A stretch of 28,468 bases of DNA from a virus. The notes below the pieces were generated by a model. That model was not told where the DNA came from, did no database searches, and worked only from the letters and a program-made list of their open reading frames with translations. Positions 1 to 26,335 of the stretch are shown one piece after another. The translations under genes were made by a program, and so were the position numbers. The stretch covers positions 1-28,468 of the IMG/VR virus record IMGVR_UViG_3300020401_000070; one strand, given 5' to 3'. Numbering within the stretch: position 1 is the first letter of the stretch; each line of letters opens with the position of its first letter.

Positions 1-164
1 GATCTGTTTCCATATCTTTCAACTTCTTGTTCGTATACATCAGGTAAAAATTGTTGAGCCCACATATTAAATGAGCTGTCTGTAAAATCAATATAGTTAC
101 CAGCATAAAGAGCCTTGCTTTGGGTTGGTTGCAAAGCAGCTGGTACTCCACTTGTAAAAGCCAT
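1..164 (-). CDS. Probable major capsid protein, N-terminal 54 codons only
   Basis: An open frame begins with ATG at 164 and runs off the window at base 1. The protein starts MAFTSGVPAALQPTQSKALY and continues with a Trp/Gln/Glu-rich stretch (SSFNMWAQQFLPDVYEQE). The start follows an A/T-rich leader 20 bases after the scaffold-like gene. No capsid fold can be judged from 54 residues. The call rests on order: large terminase, portal, acidic coiled protein, then this gene is the usual packaging-to-capsid order in tailed phages, and the major capsid gene normally follows the scaffold. It could instead be a minor head protein. The reading frame is well supported; the function is inferred from position. 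Confidence 0.62.
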   Translation of the reverse strand, partial: MAFTSGVPAALQPTQSKALYAGNYIDFTDSSFNMWAQQFLPDVYEQEVERYGNR

Positions 165-184: not shown

Positions 185-1465
185 TTATTTTGTCCATTTT
201 ATTCGCAATTTATCAGAAGAATCACCGGACACAACCCTTATTTTATCACCAGACGAAGTTGTTATTACTGAATTATCCACTCTTGGGGACATATCAATAT
301 TTTTAGCTTCTTTTGCTTGTGCTTTTATGGCGTCTGCACGCCCTTGTTCATAAAAATGAGATGCAATTTTATCTGCATTTCTTCCAGCAAATAGTGCTTT
401 GTGATAGCTACTAGCATCACCTAAATTACCGTCTTTATCAACAAATTCATTTATAAAATTTTTTAGATCAGATTGATATTCTTTTACAGCTTTTGTATTG
501 TCAACTTTAAACCTAAATTTTTTGTCTTCAACTTGAAAATCAAACCCTTTAAAGTTGTTATTAAAAACCTTTTCTGTTTTTTCTAAAAAACTTTTTTGTT
601 GGTTGTTCCAGCTTTCCTTTTCAGATTGCTGTTCTTTATAATACTCTAAAGCGCTTACATATTCTTCAGGAATATCATTTTGCTTACTTAACTTAAGGTC
701 CGCATAATATTTGCTTTTAGAATCATCAAAGTACTTTTTAGCATTATATAGTTCTTCTTTAAATAAAACTTGTTTAGCGCGTATATCAGAACTTTCGTCT
801 GTTTCTTCATCGTATGAAAAGTTCTTTTGCATTAAAAAGTTTATATCTTCATTATCTAAATGAGGTTTTGTTGTTTTATAATATTCATACACAAGATTTG
901 TATTATTCATTTTAGAATAATCTCTATTAAGATTAACATAATCTTCTAAAGATCCTCCAGTCTCTTGCATGAAATCAATTAATTTTTGAATATTTTCAGG
1001 ATATTCAACTTTATTTTCGTTTTGCGGTTGAGGTTGTTTTTCAACAGTTTCCTCAACAATTTTTTCTTCTTCTTTAGTATCTTCTTCTTTAGTATCTTCA
1101 ATTAATTCTAAAGGAGAGTCTACTTCCTGCCCCTGTTCTTCCTCGTTACTTTTATTTTCTTCTTCTTGTTTATTTTCTCCGGCAGGTTCTTTAGTTTCTT
1201 CTTCGTTTTCTTTTTGAATTTTTTCGCTAGTTTCGGATCCGTCGCGTACAGATACCTCATTTGTGCTTTGCTCTTGAACGGCATTTTCTTCTTTTTTTGT
1301 TGGAGGTTTATCAACATTTACACGATACACACCGTCTTCTTGAAAACCATAATTAGAATCTACTTCACCTTTGTCTATTGCATCTTGCAATACATTGGCT
1401 TCTTTTTCTTGTGTTGAAACTTCTTCTTTAGCTTCAACAGCGCTTACTTTAACATTTTCTTCCAT
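185..1465 (-). CDS. Acidic coiled protein, probable capsid scaffolding protein
   Basis: This 426-aa protein lies between the portal and the probable capsid gene, where tailed phages usually encode a scaffold that guides procapsid assembly and is then removed. Residues 1-150 are low-complexity and dominated by Glu, Lys, Gln and Asn, with an exact tandem DNA repeat encoding EDTKEEDTKEE near residues 123-133. Residues 155-390 are predicted by eye to be largely helical, with Lys/Glu-rich heptads and many Tyr/Phe. The C-terminal 30 residues are basic and beta-like (DKIRVVSGDSSDKLRIKWTK), as would suit a capsid-binding tail. I see no protease motif. A second frame carrying a recognisable small protein lies inside residues 61-115. 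The scaffold role is inferred from position and composition. Confidence 0.62.
   Translation of the reverse strand: MEENVKVSAVEAKEEVSTQEKEANVLQDAIDKGEVDSNYGFQEDGVYRVNVDKPPTKKEENAVQEQSTNEVSVRDGSETSEKIQKENEEETKEPAGENKQEEENKSNEEEQGQEVDSPLELIEDTKEEDTKEEEKIVEETVEKQPQPQNENKVEYPENIQKLIDFMQETGGSLEDYVNLNRDYSKMNNTNLVYEYYKTTKPHLDNEDINFLMQKNFSYDEETDESSDIRAKQVLFKEELYNAKKYFDDSKSKYYADLKLSKQNDIPEEYVSALEYYKEQQSEKESWNNQQKSFLEKTEKVFNNNFKGFDFQVEDKKFRFKVDNTKAVKEYQSDLKNFINEFVDKDGNLGDASSYHKALFAGRNADKIASHFYEQGRADAIKAQAKEAKNIDMSPRVDNSVITTSSGDKIRVVSGDSSDKLRIKWTK
1066..1095. repeat. Perfect 15-bp tandem repeat, two copies
   Basis: The unit cttcttctttagtat occurs twice head to tail, within the scaffold-like gene. It duplicates a five-residue acidic unit and keeps the frame. 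It lies just downstream (in transcription order) of the overprinted frame and does not alter it. Slippage in low-complexity DNA is the simplest origin. Confidence 0.85.
1120..1284 (-). CDS. Overprinted 54-aa basic protein (MPFKSKAQ family) inside the scaffold-like gene
   Basis: A second frame on the same strand, inside codons 61-115 of the acidic gene, encodes a 54-aa protein ending in TAG. It starts MPFKSKAQMRYLYATDPKLA, then has a Lys-rich run, the segment KNLPEKI and a basic tail ending KNRGRK. From memory, the pattern MPFKSxAQxRYLYAxxPxLAKxF...LPEK is that of a family of small basic phage and virus proteins usually encoded as separate genes. A Glu-rich gene read one frame over tends to give Lys runs, but not this ordered motif with Met-Pro, Phe, Gln, Tyr-Leu-Tyr-Ala, Asp-Pro and Leu-Pro-Glu-Lys. 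The frame opens earlier, at an ATG at 1317, but I prefer 1284 because family members start at MPFKS. Function is unknown. Expression is unproven. Confidence 0.6.
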   Translation of the reverse strand: MPFKSKAQMRYLYATDPKLAKKFKKKTKKKLKNLPEKINKKKKIKVTRKNRGRK

Positions 1466-1492: not shown

Positions 1493-3916
1493 TTATTTAG
1501 GTTCAAATCTTGATAAATCAAACCCACCTAAAACGTCATTTCCTTTAGACTCAAAAGATTTTTTAGGTTTTTCTGTTTTGGGAGGGCCAGCTATTGATGC
1601 AGAACTAATTTTTTTATCTGCTATTCTTTCCTGAACCTCTGATTGTTTTTCAGCTAATTCTTTTTGAGCTTGCAACTCTAATTGTTTTAATTGAACGTTT
1701 AAATCAAATTCAAATTGCATTAATTCTCTTTTTGTCCTAGCTTCTACCTCTAATTTTTTAATATCAAATTCGTTTTCTGCATTTGATATTTGTATTTTAG
1801 ACTCTGTTTTAACTTGCTCAGCTTGAGCCTTAGCCTCTTCTATTTGTATTTGTGCTTGGCCTTGAGCTTCAGCTTGTGCAACAGAAGCTGCCTGCGCAGA
1901 TTGTTGATCCGCAGCTTGCTTTTTAATTCTTCTAAATTTTAAAAGTTGATTAGCAAGCTTTATATTGTTTACTTGTCTTATGTCAATGGCGTCTTCTAAA
2001 AATATACTGTTTTGCGAAAGAGCCATTTGTATATTAGTTTCTAAAAGTTGTTTTTCTTCTTCATCAGGCTCTAACTCTAAAAATATACCAAAGTCATGCA
2101 AATGAAGATCTTTTAATTCTTCTAAGCTTCCTACAGTAAATTTTCCTAAACCATCTATAAATGCTTTTTTAGCAGGATGGTATTCTAAAACATCTTTAAA
2201 TCTTAACGAAATAGCTTCTGCTAAAGTAAGCGTAATATACATGCTAGAATTAACTAAATGCCTTGTGGCTGTATTACTGTTTGCCGCTGCTAACTTTTGA
2301 ACACCAACTAAAGCTTTAGGGTCAGGATCAGAACCATCTCTTGCTTCATTTAATCCCGTAATATCCCGGATCATTTGCAGATATTGATTATATGCACCTA
2401 TTAATAATTGCACTTGATTGCCACCACCTCCAGGTAGTTCTTGAATTGGAACTTTACCAGGGTTAGGATCACCTTCAACTGTAAGTGATCTACCTATAAT
2501 TGAACCTGTTTGAAAGTACATATTTAAAGCCTCTTGAGGATTATAGCTTGTGCCATTTCCAAGGTCTATTTCTGCAAGTCCATCAGCATCTATATAAACA
2601 CCCGAAGGCGTCATTCTTTGTATTGCTTGTTGTAACTTTAAATGCGTAAGCTGTATAAGATCCGCATATGGAGTCATTTTAGCAACAAGAGAATCAATTC
2701 TACCTTTGTATATTCTAGGGGCAGACACAATATAATTCATTAATACTTTATTAGCATTAGAATTGGGTCTTACCATGTTTGTTGCTTTTTGCCATTTTAA
2801 AAGCTTATTACTGCCTAATAAATATACGCCTTCAAATATTACTTCTCTTGCTTGTGCTACTCTTTCAAATCTTGTTCTTTTATCTTTAGGAGGATTAAAG
2901 CTATCGTCTTTTTTAATTGCTTTTTTTGCTCCAGAAGAAATTTCTTTTATTTTATAAACACTATTTTCAAAAGTTTTCCAATTAAAATATAAAACAGTTA
3001 AAGTGTTTTCATTATCGGAATCACTATTTCCGTAATCAAAATTATCACCGTACATTAAAGAATAGTTACTTCCTTTTTTAGTAATTTCTTTTATGTCTTC
3101 TATTGTTAAATCGGGAAACTGTTTTTTAAGCTCATTTAATTTTATTCTTTTTACTTCACCAAAATAATAGCAATCCTCAAAATTAGGATCTTCTGTATAT
3201 GACCATATTAAATTAGCAGGGTCTACATAATCAAGCTTTATTCCGTCAGTATTATTAAAAGAATGTTTTACAGCAGATATACCGAGCACTGCTCCGTCGT
3301 AATCTATTCGTTTTTTTAATTCACTGTATTTATTTCTGAGAAATATATTGTTTATAGCCTGTTCTTCAGCTACTTCAATGCCTTGCTTATAATTTAATTG
3401 CATGTATAACTCGAGCTCTTCCGTATTTTCAGGAAGTTCTGACTCTGGTATATTTCTTGCGTTTACACCAAGCTCAGCTTCAATATCCGCTAATATTTGC
3501 TTAGCAGCCAAATCTCTTTGGACATTTTCAACATATTTAGTTCGCTTACCTGTAGCTATTTGGTCTTGTGCAAAAGCTTTGATAGAAAATAATCTGTCTT
3601 GCATTCCATTAACTACTATATCTATAAACTTAGGAATAATAGGCACGGGCTTCCAATCTAAGTTTAAATATGATAAATCGCCATTAATAGCAAATTCATC
3701 TTTATATTTTCTTATTGACTGCTCACCTCTAGCATATAACCTAAGCCTATGGAACTCGTCCCGTGTTTGGTAATATTTACCCAGGCCTCTGTCCTTGTTA
3801 AACCATTCTTGCTCTATAGCTTTAGCTACTTCTAACCCATACTCAGAACTTCTTTTTTGGGAGTCTGAAACAGCTTGGCTTGGAAAAATAGAATAATCTT
3901 TTTGAGTTTTTGCCAT
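1493..3916 (-). CDS. Portal protein
   Basis: The 807-aa product fits the dodecameric portal that forms the DNA entry pore at one capsid vertex. The length and several stretches match my memory of crAss-like and flavobacterial phage portals: the N-terminal YARGEQSIRKYK and NLDWKPVPIIPKFIDIVVNG segments (residues 61-104), and the mid-protein DGAVLGISAVKHSF and DPANLIWSYTEDPNFEDCYY stretches that form the portal body. Residues about 675-768 are a long Ala/Gln/Glu/Lys coiled coil, probably inside the capsid or around the DNA. The last 40 residues are Pro/Lys-rich with a terminal GGFDLSRFEPK. The gene follows the terminase by two bases, as expected for a packaging module. Portal identity is strong from context and length; the crAss-like affinity is moderate. 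Confidence 0.85.
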   Translation of the reverse strand: MAKTQKDYSIFPSQAVSDSQKRSSEYGLEVAKAIEQEWFNKDRGLGKYYQTRDEFHRLRLYARGEQSIRKYKDEFAINGDLSYLNLDWKPVPIIPKFIDIVVNGMQDRLFSIKAFAQDQIATGKRTKYVENVQRDLAAKQILADIEAELGVNARNIPESELPENTEELELYMQLNYKQGIEVAEEQAINNIFLRNKYSELKKRIDYDGAVLGISAVKHSFNNTDGIKLDYVDPANLIWSYTEDPNFEDCYYFGEVKRIKLNELKKQFPDLTIEDIKEITKKGSNYSLMYGDNFDYGNSDSDNENTLTVLYFNWKTFENSVYKIKEISSGAKKAIKKDDSFNPPKDKRTRFERVAQAREVIFEGVYLLGSNKLLKWQKATNMVRPNSNANKVLMNYIVSAPRIYKGRIDSLVAKMTPYADLIQLTHLKLQQAIQRMTPSGVYIDADGLAEIDLGNGTSYNPQEALNMYFQTGSIIGRSLTVEGDPNPGKVPIQELPGGGGNQVQLLIGAYNQYLQMIRDITGLNEARDGSDPDPKALVGVQKLAAANSNTATRHLVNSSMYITLTLAEAISLRFKDVLEYHPAKKAFIDGLGKFTVGSLEELKDLHLHDFGIFLELEPDEEEKQLLETNIQMALSQNSIFLEDAIDIRQVNNIKLANQLLKFRRIKKQAADQQSAQAASVAQAEAQGQAQIQIEEAKAQAEQVKTESKIQISNAENEFDIKKLEVEARTKRELMQFEFDLNVQLKQLELQAQKELAEKQSEVQERIADKKISSASIAGPPKTEKPKKSFESKGNDVLGGFDLSRFEPK

Positions 3917-3918
3917 AC

Positions 3919-6147
3919 TTATTTAATTAGCATACTTCTATTTCCTTCATTCTTATATTTGGAGAATGAAAAATTAAGTTTCTTTGTTGATCTTTCTTGT
4001 CTTGGTCTATATAAATGTTTTCTGCAGGCCATTATAGCTAACCCGCTGCTTATAGAAGCATCATGAGCTGTTCTTTTTGATATATCAAATTTAGCCCAGT
4101 CTTCTAATGTTCTTTGAAAATACATACTGCCGTAGTCCTCTCCTTGATTACCTACGTTTTCTTCTATGTATGATTCAATTGCGGCTGCATGTGCTTGTCT
4201 TATATCTTCTGATGTATTAGGTATTCCTCCTAATTCTGATTCTGTTTTTGATAAAGCGCCCCGTAATTTATCAGGGCGATTCATAGAATAACCTCTATAA
4301 CCTCTTCTTTTTAAATGATATAATAATCTTGGCTTATTGTTTTCTGCCAATATTGACATACCATAAAAAACTATTGCCATTAAAACATCTTCAAAAAATA
4401 TTTCGGCTGTTTGAGGTCTTGCAATATATTCTAAAAAAAATCTACTTGACGGGAAATCAGAGTTCATTGAAAATGTGGTAAGCCCATGCAAAGCTCCGTT
4501 TGAGCCACGCCCGCCTACTGTGCCTGATATATCATATGAGTCACATCCAAAATACCCAAACCCGTCGTTGCCAGGATATTTTATTCCATTTTTTTCAATT
4601 ATATTGTTTCTTAAGTGTTCTTTAGGTAACCAACTTACAAGAAATCTTCCATTTCTATTTGGTGTCCATATAACTTCACTATCTTTAATGCCATTCTTCC
4701 AAGAAAAACTACCTTTAACAACATAACCTTTCATTGCCATTTCTTCATTATGATCAATCTGTTCGTATATTTTAGTAAGATTAAATAATGAATTTAGTGT
4801 TTCATCTCTAAAAGCATGTTTTTCAGATCTTGGAAATTGTCTGTAATATTCATTTAATGCATCAGCATCGTTTTTGAGGCCTTCAACTTCGTTTTCCCAA
4901 TGTTCAATAACTCCTGTAGTGATGATGCTTCCTTCAATTCCTTTAACCGGATTTTGTGGGGTATCGAATACAGGGTATCCATACATATCAATAAATCCTT
5001 CGTAGCCCCATTCCATAGGTATGAACAAAGAATATAATCCACTTGTAGTCTGGCCATTTTTATTTCGTTCTCTAACGTCTGAGTCATAGTATAATTTTTT
5101 AAAATTATCGCCTCCTTTGTCTAAAGAGTTAGACGTTGAACCCATCATACATTTACCAACAACTCTAGCACCTAATCTTAAACAAGTTTTAGTTACTCGC
5201 CAGTTGTTTAATATATTGTCAGGTCTTTCCCACTTACCTGATTCATCGTGTACTAATAGTATTAACTTTTCACCATCATAACTATTATCACCTGTATTTT
5301 TCCAATCAATAGTTGTATCAAGACCTTGCCCTAAAAGATCGTCTTCAGACTCTTTAAAAGAATTTCTTGTTAATCTTCTTGACGGGACCTTGTAGGATAA
5401 CTCGGTCTTCGGCCTTTCCATTCCGTCTTGTATCGGTTTGAAAAAGAACGGATAGTTGGTTGATATTGGTACGACTTTATCGGTGAACATTTTTTTAGCG
5501 TCAGCACCGGTCTTGGATAGTATGCCAAACCTCGAGTCCCTTGATGTTGTAGCCATGTTAACAGTTTCTGATGATGCCATGAAGCTAAACCCAGACCGTC
5601 TATTTTTGAGGTAGCACATACCGTAACATCTGTAATCGGCCTTGCACGCCTCCCAAAAATAATAAAAGATCCTGTTAGCATGTCTGAACTCCGGAGCCCC
5701 CACGTCAATCTTTGTCCAGTTGAGATACATATAGTGCGATCCTGTAATGTAACAGGGCTCACCGTTGCACATGAACCAGTAACCATCATTACGCCTATTA
5801 AATTCAGTATCAATATAATTATAATACTGTTCTTTAGTTTGTTCGGGATGATGCTTAAACTCATGTACTGTTTTAATTTTGTTTAATGATTCAGGTCTAT
5901 TCCTTCTAGTAAATATTTGATTTTCTTTTTTTAAATGATCACCATCTATTTTATCAGGAGTTTTAGGTATTGCTATCTTAAGACCTTGAATTTCATATAT
6001 CTCACCTATTGTACCGTCTTTACTGATTATAACGCAATCTAAATCAGCATTATAACCATATTCGTATTTTTTATACTTGTTGTTTCTTTTTGTTTCTTTA
6101 GTATCTATGTGGTCTATAATTATGTTATAGAGAGATTGTTTATACAT
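3919..6147 (-). CDS. terL: Terminase large subunit (DNA-packaging ATPase/nuclease)
   Basis: A 742-aa packaging motor that cuts concatemeric phage DNA and pumps it through the portal. The ATPase domain shows a degenerate Walker A region (KNRRSGFS, residues 181-188) and a clear Walker B, LILLVHDESGKWE (295-307; Asp301-Glu302). A coupling motif GKCMMGSTSN follows (331-340). The RNase H-like nuclease domain starts near GYFGCDSYDISG (531-542; Asp536 as the first acidic ligand) and includes RTAHDAS (692-698; Asp696) as the likely last one. The HDE(S/A)GKWE and MGST.N pattern matches, as far as I recall, terminases of crAss-like and flavobacterial phages. The start overlaps the preceding stop as TAATG. 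Codons for residues about 119-259 are much richer in G+C than the rest of the gene. Confidence 0.92.
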   Translation of the reverse strand: MYKQSLYNIIIDHIDTKETKRNNKYKKYEYGYNADLDCVIISKDGTIGEIYEIQGLKIAIPKTPDKIDGDHLKKENQIFTRRNRPESLNKIKTVHEFKHHPEQTKEQYYNYIDTEFNRRNDGYWFMCNGEPCYITGSHYMYLNWTKIDVGAPEFRHANRIFYYFWEACKADYRCYGMCYLKNRRSGFSFMASSETVNMATTSRDSRFGILSKTGADAKKMFTDKVVPISTNYPFFFKPIQDGMERPKTELSYKVPSRRLTRNSFKESEDDLLGQGLDTTIDWKNTGDNSYDGEKLILLVHDESGKWERPDNILNNWRVTKTCLRLGARVVGKCMMGSTSNSLDKGGDNFKKLYYDSDVRERNKNGQTTSGLYSLFIPMEWGYEGFIDMYGYPVFDTPQNPVKGIEGSIITTGVIEHWENEVEGLKNDADALNEYYRQFPRSEKHAFRDETLNSLFNLTKIYEQIDHNEEMAMKGYVVKGSFSWKNGIKDSEVIWTPNRNGRFLVSWLPKEHLRNNIIEKNGIKYPGNDGFGYFGCDSYDISGTVGGRGSNGALHGLTTFSMNSDFPSSRFFLEYIARPQTAEIFFEDVLMAIVFYGMSILAENNKPRLLYHLKRRGYRGYSMNRPDKLRGALSKTESELGGIPNTSEDIRQAHAAAIESYIEENVGNQGEDYGSMYFQRTLEDWAKFDISKRTAHDASISSGLAIMACRKHLYRPRQERSTKKLNFSFSKYKNEGNRSMLIK

Positions 6148-24161: not shown

Positions 24162-24412
24162 TATAAAATAGCAACTACGTCTTTAAGAGCTATAACTTTA
24201 TATAGTTTATCGCTATACTCTATGTCGTGGCCTGAAACTTTATCGTATAATATTTTTTGTTTTTCTTTTATCGCATCTGGTCCAGATGATATTACAATTC
24301 CTTTGCGGTAGCGCATTTCTTCATGCTTATCTGCAAGCTCTAACCCACCAGCTGTTTTTTTAATATTTTCAGCTATGTCTTTTATAATTATGTAATTGCC
24401 TATTGCTATCAT
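24161..24412 (-). CDS. groES: GroES-type co-chaperonin, short form (83 aa)
   Basis: The chain aligns with GroES: MIAIGNYIIIKDI at the start (compare RVIVKR), then KKTAGGLELADK (19-30), which fits the mobile loop with its two Gly and three-residue hydrophobic edge (LEL here, IVL in E. coli). RKGIVISSG (36-44) matches RGEVLAVG, and KLYKVIALKDVVAIL (69-83) matches VLIMSESDILAIV. It is about 14 residues shorter than bacterial GroES, mainly in the roof loop and middle. The mobile loop being kept suggests it still docks on GroEL. Its start overlaps the groEL stop by four bases (ATGA), so it should be made in step with GroEL. Confidence 0.85.
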   Translation of the reverse strand: MIAIGNYIIIKDIAENIKKTAGGLELADKHEEMRYRKGIVISSGPDAIKEKQKILYDKVSGHDIEYSDKLYKVIALKDVVAIL

Positions 24413-25992
24413 TCTTCTCTAACATTTGAAATTACACAATCAGTTGAAAGAATAGTAGCAGCTACAGATACAGCATTATTCAAAGCTGTTTTTGTAACAA
24501 GAAGAGGATCAACAATTCCAACGTCAATCATTTCTTTTACACAACCACAAGTAACATCAACACCTTCACCCCATTTATTTAAACTATATGAGGTAGGTTC
24601 TAAACCAGCATTTTTAAGTATTTTGGTAAAAGGCGCAACTAAAGCTGATTTTAAAATTTCTAAACCAGTTAGCATTCCACCGTTTAATTTCATAACACCT
24701 GTTTCCATAACGGCAGCATGCGCAAGTGCTGATCCACCACCGGGTAATATGCCTTCTTTTTTAGCGGCACGAACGGCGTGTATAGCATCATCTACTCTGT
24801 CTTGTTTTTCTTTTAACTCTACCTCGGTATCAGCGCCTACGAAAATTACTGCAACGCCACCCGATAATAAAGCTAAACGATCATTTAAATGTTTAGTCAT
24901 TACATGATGATCTTCTTTTTCAAGAACAGTTTTTAAATACTTAATTCTGTCTTGCACTTCTTTTGGTTTATCATTAACCATAAGTACAGTACCATCTTTA
25001 TCTGAAAAGGCTTTATCAGCCGACCCTAGCATGTCAGGGGTGATCGCATCAATCGAATCACCCAAGGTTTCATCGAACACTTTTGCACCGACAAGCAACG
25101 CTAGATCCTCTAGTATATCTTTTCTTTTAAGTCCAAAACTTGGAGGGTCTATAACGTTGACCTTAATGTTGCCCTTTACTTTATTCATAGCTAAAGCCGC
25201 CAGCGGCTGCGACTCTAAAGGAGCAACAAGGAGTATTGATCGATTGGACTGTATCGCGTACTCCAAAATATCTTGAATTTTTCTCATGTTCGGAATATCC
25301 GAAACACTTAAGAAAATTAACGGATTATCTAATTCAGCAACTTCTTTTTCATTATTAGTATAAAAATGAGGACTTTTACTTATTGATCCTATTTTTGTGC
25401 CTTGTACCGCTTGCACATAAGTTTCACTAGTAGGAGAGCTTTCCATAGTAACAACTCCATTACTACCTGCTTCATTAAAAGCATTAGCTATTATATCGCC
25501 TAGCTCTACATCATTATTAGCTGATATAGTAGAAACTTGCCTTAACTTATCTTGTTCAACAGGTATAGCTTTCTCATCTAGTATTTTTATAATATGGTCT
25601 TTAAAAAGATCCATACCTTTTCTTATATCTCTAAAAGAATGCTGTTCTCCTTTTGCTGAATAGTAACAGTCAATGATAGCTTTTGTAAGAACTATAGACG
25701 TAGTTGTGCCGTCGCCTGCTACAGCTGCTGTTTTTTGTGCAGCTTGCTTCATCATAGATACCGCAAGATTTTCTATAGGATCTTGAAGCAGTATGCTATT
25801 TGCTACGGTAACACCGTCTTTAGTTACTTGAGGACCACCAAAGTCGTCTTCTATAACGACAGTTTTGCCGCTAGCTCCTAAAGTTGAGCCAACGGCATTT
25901 GCTATCTTATTTATTCCGTTAATTAGTTTTTCCTTAGCTTTGCCATCAAAATACATTTGTTTGACTAACTTTGGACCACCAAATTGTGCCAT
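24409..25992 (-). CDS. groEL: GroEL-type chaperonin (527 aa)
   Basis: A full-length group I chaperonin. Equatorial ATP site: TLGASGKTVV (37-46) and GDGTTTS (93-99). Intermediate domain: VDDAIHAVRAA (400-410) with Asp402 in the place of catalytic Asp398, and Gly-rich ILPGGGSAL (415-423). Asp495 in GIVDPLLVT matches the E. coli residue of the same number. The apical domain (about 190-375) is recognisable (KSPHFYTNN, PLIFLSVSDI, SILLVAPLESQPLAALAMNK) but quite diverged. The Gly-Gly-Met tail of bacterial GroEL is absent. Phage GroEL proteins are known (phage EL, OBP), where they fold phage proteins. It stands before groES and upstream of the fibre genes. Codons for residues about 234-324 are richer in G+C than the rest. 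Confidence 0.95.
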   Translation of the reverse strand: MAQFGGPKLVKQMYFDGKAKEKLINGINKIANAVGSTLGASGKTVVIEDDFGGPQVTKDGVTVANSILLQDPIENLAVSMMKQAAQKTAAVAGDGTTTSIVLTKAIIDCYYSAKGEQHSFRDIRKGMDLFKDHIIKILDEKAIPVEQDKLRQVSTISANNDVELGDIIANAFNEAGSNGVVTMESSPTSETYVQAVQGTKIGSISKSPHFYTNNEKEVAELDNPLIFLSVSDIPNMRKIQDILEYAIQSNRSILLVAPLESQPLAALAMNKVKGNIKVNVIDPPSFGLKRKDILEDLALLVGAKVFDETLGDSIDAITPDMLGSADKAFSDKDGTVLMVNDKPKEVQDRIKYLKTVLEKEDHHVMTKHLNDRLALLSGGVAVIFVGADTEVELKEKQDRVDDAIHAVRAAKKEGILPGGGSALAHAAVMETGVMKLNGGMLTGLEILKSALVAPFTKILKNAGLEPTSYSLNKWGEGVDVTCGCVKEMIDVGIVDPLLVTKTALNNAVSVAATILSTDCVISNVREE

Positions 25993-26020: not shown

Positions 26021-26335
26021 TTAACAATTCCATTTACGTCTAGCAGCTCTACCTCTTTCTGAGGTCCAGCTTTTAGATCTAGCGCAGAATGACTTCCTGC
26101 GTTTTGCAGCTTTACTTCCTTTTTTAAGTTTAGAAGGGGGTGTTGTAACTGCAGTCTTTAGTTTACTGCCAGGATTATCTCTACGATATTTAGCAACACC
26201 TTTGCTAGTCATTCCGCCACCGGCTTTTTTACCCGTGCCACCACCTTTTTTTACTTTAGCATAATATCCTAAAGATTTCTTTTTTGAAGGTGCAGGCGGT
26301 TTACGCCTTTTAGCAGTTGCTTTTTTAACCGGCAT
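26021..26335 (-). CDS. Basic Cys-containing protein of marine-phage type (104 aa)
   Basis: Very rich in Lys, Arg and Gly (MPVKKATAKRRKPPAPSKKK; GKKAGGGMTSKGVAKYRRDN). The C-terminus has the pattern KSFCARSKSW...RAARRKWNC (Cys at about 83 and at the end). I recall this ending, SFCAR(M/S)...RKWNC, from a recurrent family in marine phages, often labelled DUF6321, with unknown function. It is placed directly before groEL. Two conserved Cys in a 104-aa basic protein might bind metal or form a disulfide; a DNA-binding virion-internal role is one guess. Family name is from memory. Confidence 0.72.
   Translation of the reverse strand: MPVKKATAKRRKPPAPSKKKSLGYYAKVKKGGGTGKKAGGGMTSKGVAKYRRDNPGSKLKTAVTTPPSKLKKGSKAAKRRKSFCARSKSWTSERGRAARRKWNC

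Follow-up and report, generated by a model that had tools for sequence, protein, structure and literature searches.

The window analysed here is the whole of a 28,468-nt stretch of viral DNA (positions 1 to 28,468 of the IMG/VR record IMGVR_UViG_3300020401_000070), in which a putative small gene lies out of frame inside a longer gene of the head module, hereafter the container (Table 1). The order terminase, portal, container and presumed capsid was found in the window as well as in its cultured relatives, and the position assigned to the capsid gene rests on the same gene order in contigs L192 and L248 and in those relatives. L248 (NZIO01000042.1), in which terminase, portal, container and capsid follow one another as in the rest of this phage group, was binned as Pelagibacter, probably by error. 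According to terminase and portal, the cultured relatives were ctfjg026, Elemovirus, the Maribacter phage Panino, and Cellulophaga and Tenacibaculum phages, for which reason the host of the window phage is inferred to be probably a flavobacterium. Elsewhere in the window, a phage-encoded GroEL-like chaperonin of 527 aa was found at 24409-25992, elemo phages likewise carrying GroEL and GroES, and a small basic protein matching phrog_10346 was found at 26021-26335, a similar one appearing near the free-standing small gene of phage 023Pt_psg01.

Table 1. Features of the locus, with coordinates in the window.
Feature	Coordinates	Strand	Remarks
Putative nested gene, 54 aa (MPFKSKAQMRYLYATDPKLA...)	1120..1284	(-)	+1 frame of the container; stop at 1120-1122
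Container, acidic protein of 426 aa, scaffold-like, of the head module	185..1465	(-)	Flanked by the portal gene and the presumed major capsid gene
Translation initiation region of the nested ATG, A-rich (TCCAACAAAAAAAGAAGAAA)	1285..1304	(-)	A at -3, -6, -12, -13; without Shine-Dalgarno motif
Container residues 53-115, predicted disordered (pLDDT<50), hosting the nested gene	1120..1309	(-)	
Optional in-frame upstream extension, 65-aa version from ATG 1317	1285..1317	(-)	Not kept in relatives
Portal protein, phrog_6547	1493..3916	(-)	Anchor independent of the nested ORF
Terminase large subunit, phrog_6681	3919..6147	(-)	Profile match
Start of the presumed major capsid protein gene (MAFTSGVPAALQ...)	1..163	(-)	Runs off the window

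The original prediction, made from the letters alone, had placed an overprinted 54-aa basic protein at 1120-1284, and an ORF running from ATG to stop was indeed found there, beginning 181 nt into the 426-aa ORF (181 mod 3 = 1) and overlapping container residues 61-115/116, as had been claimed. An in-frame start further upstream would lengthen the product, although only the MPFKS start was conserved in relatives. The nested product contains 20 Lys, 4 Arg, 1 Asp and 1 Glu, as against 17 Glu, 1 Asp, 5 Lys and 1 Arg in the overlapped stretch of the container. Membership in a family of small basic phage proteins, which had been asserted from recognition of its landmarks, was corroborated by a match to phrog_1375 of PHROGs v4 (E-value of 1.1e-5, residues 3-51 aligned to positions 17-69 of the 70 in the profile), listed in PHROGs as of unknown function. 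Both share the MPFKS..Q start and the basic tail, and the free-standing homologues L026 and L078 also match the profile; in contrast, the window member is nested out of frame, and the nested classes PKWDC and MPYKG fall short of the profile. When viral contigs were scanned with the nested product, relatives were found to be encoded at 406 loci, and the proposed homologue search thus returned hundreds of relatives with conserved landmarks other than Lys, including free-standing genes. Searches of Pfam and NCBIfam gave no usable match for the nested protein or the container. Moreover, a tblastn search of cultured phages with all 54 aa as the query gave no match, probably owing to the low-complexity filter, while trimmed queries did give matches. 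Matches in Pseudomonas phages (E-values of 2-3) were rejected as chance, being in frame with the PAK_P3 portal gene, and a likewise weak match in 201phi2-1 was also rejected.

The nested ATG was conserved in every nested copy, and adenine was frequent upstream of it at positions -12 (91%), -13 (83%), -6 (79%) and -3 (75%), with a Shine-Dalgarno-like motif in only one of 207 copies and a nested-frame stop within ten codons upstream in 175 of the 207. Adenines at those positions stimulate initiation in Flavobacterium johnsoniae (PMC6847099). However, it should be borne in mind that the richness in A before the nested ATG partly follows from the container codons. In the model of the nested product, two helices form a hairpin (residues 6-26, pLDDT about 90) followed by a Lys-rich tail, and Foldseek gave no match of this model to a known fold. 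That the product is an accessory of head assembly or packaging, binding either nucleic acid or some acidic partner, is only a guess, founded on position and charge, on which we would not bet at even odds.

In the AlphaFold2 model of the container, the pLDDT of residues 53-115 was below 50 while the core (residues 157-390) was mostly confident and helical, and because of this the nested gene is predicted to sit in a disordered linker, which is acidic. The container had no PHROG or Pfam match, and Foldseek of its model found no PDB fold match. Its gene had been called scaffold-like, which agrees with a place between the portal and capsid genes, but a role as a true scaffolding protein is unproven, there being no profile or fold match to support it. 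Furthermore, container homologues in elemo phages and phi38:1 are annotated as structural proteins; these labels may mean that the container stays in the virion and, if they were based on virion proteomics, would speak against its being purely a scaffold.

The nesting was followed through relatives by three routes. In loci anchored on the portal, chosen so that they were not selected for having a nested ORF, all 72 that reached far enough had a +1 nested ORF of the same kind in the same gene, with its MP start at container codon 51-87. The scan with the nested product gave 80 loci that were kept (of 406), in 76 of which the ORF lay wholly inside the container and in the same relative frame. 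Finally, in loci anchored on the C-terminal domain of the container, where nest-free relatives were included in the query, the nested family was present in 54 of 79 (52 by pattern, and L373 and L421 by eye), and another conserved nested small protein in 12 of the 79. No copy of the nested gene was found in the cultured relatives examined (Panino, phi38:1, phi13:2 and Gundel), from which it is inferred that not all such phages require it. Most loci were metagenomic contigs, and the frame breaks in L192, L063 and L318 may be assembly indels. In particular, L192 (4859-6044) has the nested domain fused to the scaffold-like C-terminal half, with the container N-terminus stopping after 76 aa, either as a fusion or as an indel.

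Other ORFs were observed in the same container slot. The other small protein, of an unrelated family named EWLEAMK with a conserved +1 ORF (..LTTQEWLEAMKxPxPxKNKKKYxRKxKHK) weakly like phrog_6310, was nested in the N-terminal part of the container in the 12 contigs (L380, L382, L383, L397, L401, L404, L406, L411, L413, L416, L426 and L428), and its differences were wobble-biased (14/15/30). Such a family would make the slot a general nesting site. Moreover, L398 (2446-2860) had another short out-of-frame ORF (SPAKYGKSPAKMSPYKM...) at this place.

A test by codon position across related phages was carried out on 54 disjoint pairs of relatives, container codon position 1 being the wobble base of the nested frame. 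Substitutions at container positions 1, 2 and 3 amounted to 512, 243 and 322 in the overlap, as opposed to 330, 176 and 640 in the upstream flank and 1545, 867 and 3451 in the downstream flank, so that they followed the nested wobble and reversed the pattern of the flanks (overlap vs. downstream, chi-squared P-value of 1.3e-68). Individual pairs showed the nested-frame pattern in 43 cases, with 3 against, and the mean identity over the shared DNA was 0.83 for the nested product and 0.73 for the container. These substitution patterns indicate that the nested frame is under purifying selection. The container frame, for its part, was never open in 2000 trials in which the nested gene of the window was recoded synonymously at the codon usage of the container, and was open in at most 0.6% of the trials for 16 representatives; furthermore, the real container stretch was 2.8-7.3 standard deviations more acidic than the recoded ones. 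Judged by these recodings, the container frame is also selected inside the overlap, and the double constraint that had been suspected is upheld on both sides.

The GC content of the overlap was 0.40 compared to 0.29 in the remaining container (0.65 at the third positions of the nested frame), and was higher than in the rest of the container in 117 of 117 sequences, in agreement with the CG-rich codons pointed out in the original prediction. Nested Lys was encoded by AAG in 81% of the cases before AA-codons, vs. 20% outside the overlap, and in only 8-15% before GC, AC or GT, these counts not being corrected for relatedness. Before AA-codons, a final G gives the container Glu and a final A gives it Lys, so the Lys codons appear to be chosen for the container to read Glu. 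Likewise, nested Phe3 was TTC in 203 copies and TTT in two (21 and 13, respectively, in free-standing copies), because TTT before AAR is a stop in the container. This choice of Lys and Phe codons, which keeps the container open and acidic, explains the CG-rich codons of the overlap. A foreign donor as the source of the high GC content of the cassette was also considered and dropped, as Lys is encoded mainly by AAA in the free-standing homologues of AT-rich phages (AAG:AAA ratios of 4:10 in L161 and 2:15 in L081).

Free-standing homologues of the small gene, usually located in the head module, were found between the portal and scaffold-like genes in phage 023Pt_psg01, close to genes for a portal (phrog_1216), a capsid or a terminase in several contigs, in Streptomyces phage and cyanophage records, and in MAG contigs, while the container homologues of elemo phages and ctfjg026 have a shorter N-terminus without the nested gene. 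Because of the homologues in unrelated phages and of the containers without the segment, the small-protein family is probably older than the overlap and the container segment newer, as far as can be inferred from their distribution. Moreover, a de novo origin by overprinting would require that no homologues exist outside the overlap, which is not the case. Of the two directions left open by the original prediction, an older small gene is the one favoured by the data. In many loci (L187-L245), the MPFKSEKQRRYLWANEPEIARDW domain was also seen to begin long proteins of marine phages, in the manner of a portable tag.

The small gene was also found nested in +1, and unannotated, in a giant structural protein of Elemovirus (68 records) and ctfjg026, the elemo protein (gp18/gp21) being 3694 aa long with a DUF3293. 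Among 78 loci of a scan for the PKWDC class, 76 were nested; scaffold-like genes hosted most of these, and giant ORFs of 1171-2742 aa hosted seven. All the loci gathered amounted to 253 places, of which 207 were nested in the scaffold-like gene, 12 in giant genes and 34 were free-standing or cut by a contig end, and the phase was +1 in all 219 nested copies. However, these counts are biased since the searches were seeded mostly with nested sequences, and the giant genes form a family of homologous mosaics, so that they represent one container class rather than twelve. At most one copy per genome was found where whole records were searchable. At best, the cassette DNA of giant and scaffold-like genes was about 84-90% identical (84% over 141 nt between L256 and L338), with the similarity starting from a few to twenty bases 5′ of the nested ATG and ending at the nested stop, and no similarity between the two kinds of gene in the flanks. 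A 142-nt block bounded by the cassette was also found between the giant genes of elemo phages and ctfjg026. Conversely, in the pair L141 and L146 the flanks were about 95-99% identical and the overlap was replaced (50% identity of the nested product and 24% of the container stretch). The nested classes required 18 changes on the container tree, where the least possible number is 5, and well-supported branches imposed minima of 5, 7 and 8 changes on the three main classes. No recombinase or transposase accompanied the cassette, whose 120-170 nt leave no room for an enzyme. These comparisons show that nearly the same cassette DNA occupies two unrelated genes and that its types are swapped among close relatives. 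In addition, the elemo giant gene of L256 contains, about 420 nt upstream of its cassette, a second short cassette start (MPFKSKKLMK followed by a stop, 2579-2634), which might have been left behind by an earlier insertion.

Several other readings of these data were considered. As a shift of one base turns Glu codons into Lys codons, the +1 ORF might be no gene at all but an accident of the Glu-rich container, and its openness cannot decide the matter: the +1 frame stayed open in 71% of the trials in which the window was recoded synonymously for the container, and Panino, which lacks the nested gene, has a meaningless K/R-rich +1 ORF of 54 aa at the same place, so that openness was dropped as evidence for a gene. 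An accident is nevertheless refuted by the codon-position test, since substitutions track the nested frame, and by the giant genes, where the same ORF recurs in an unrelated container, and it does not fit the conserved landmarks other than Lys or the homologues outside the container, some of them free-standing; practically no credence is left for it. Hardly more can be granted to programmed frameshifting, by which the nested frame would be expressed as a fusion with the container. A-rich runs are present, and in L192 the small domain continues in frame into the C-terminal half of the container, but that contig may contain an assembly indel, and the universal conservation of the nested ATG, the nested-frame stops close upstream of it and the termination of the nested frame by a stop in nearly all loci speak against a fusion.

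The two remaining alternatives concern the history of the gene, and both seem unlikely to us. Classic overprinting, with the small gene born de novo in the scaffold-like gene and escaping later, could appeal to the overlap being the commonest setting (207 of 253 places), were it not for the seeding bias of the counts; besides, homologues stand free in phages as different as those with portal phrog_1216, cyanophages and Streptomyces phages, and the containers of elemo phages and ctfjg026 without the segment make the container part look newer. If there had been no movement between genes, the nestings in scaffold-like and giant genes would be independent captures of similar free-standing genes, which are common and close by in the head cluster. 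In that case, however, the DNA identity between both settings should not extend to the container-adapted wobble bases and a few nucleotides before the ATG, as it does, nor would a single phase be expected in all nested copies. Furthermore, the 78 loci of the PKWDC scan included no convincing free-standing copy, since L311 stops at a contig end and L318 resembles the nested L319. Bacterial overlaps in general are biased by composition towards phase +1 (PMC2542354), so the single phase alone is not proof that the cassette moved, and for deep branches independent captures with convergence cannot be wholly excluded.

The best explanation is, in our estimation, that the 54-aa ORF is a functional phrog_1375-like gene residing in a dual-coding cassette spread by recombination (probability of about 0.82), its expression and function being inferred from sequence comparison only. 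The family would have begun as free-standing genes of the head cluster, one copy of which would have been captured out of frame inside another gene, with its codons subsequently adjusted so that the host frame was free of stops and read Glu. A cassette tuned in this way to exactly one other open frame could be moved elsewhere by recombination, assumed to be homologous or based on microhomology, only in that phase, and the single +1 phase would be explained in this way. As for expression, the nested gene is inferred to be read from the same late head-gene mRNA as the container, with ribosomes initiating internally at its own ATG, where the A-rich site is of the Bacteroidetes type; expression data to confirm it are lacking. 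The basic helical hairpin with its Lys-rich tail may then act in head assembly or DNA packaging, probably through binding to nucleic acid or to an acidic head protein. More broadly, we lean slightly towards the existence of a class of mobile genes, short cassettes with codons chosen to keep a second frame open and acidic, which recombination can insert out of frame, always in +1, into the disordered linkers of phage proteins unrelated to each other while leaving these intact. The literature yielded no report of a gene like this, open-licence papers alone being covered.

Nested out-of-frame genes are known in phages, as E within D and B within A in phiX174, or Rz1 within Rz. The present case resembles them in being a complete small gene in another frame with its own start codon; in contrast, those pairs are fixed to one container, while the cassette described here is found in two unrelated containers and swapped between relatives, and its nested gene is probably the older partner. 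The Nu3 scaffold of phage lambda is nested in frame in gene C and shares with the present case the internal initiation in a head-module gene and the involvement of a scaffold, but the nested product here is out of frame and unrelated in sequence. The giant structural protein of Elemovirus carries the same unannotated cassette in the same phase, although it is unrelated to the container of the window, and the scaffold-like gene of elemo phages has no nested gene.

Overlapping genes are usually accounted for by the birth of a new gene within an old one, where it then stays fixed. In the present case, the captured gene appears to be the old one, to have changed between containers that are unrelated and to have been exchanged by relatives, while dictating the sequence of the linker of its host protein. 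It is also implied that standard annotation misses a conserved gene in hundreds of marine phages, including the 68 deposited Elemovirus records. Moreover, since cultured Flavobacterium phages carry the gene, its expression and function are directly testable, and the cassette offers a natural system for testing how one stretch of DNA serves two proteins.
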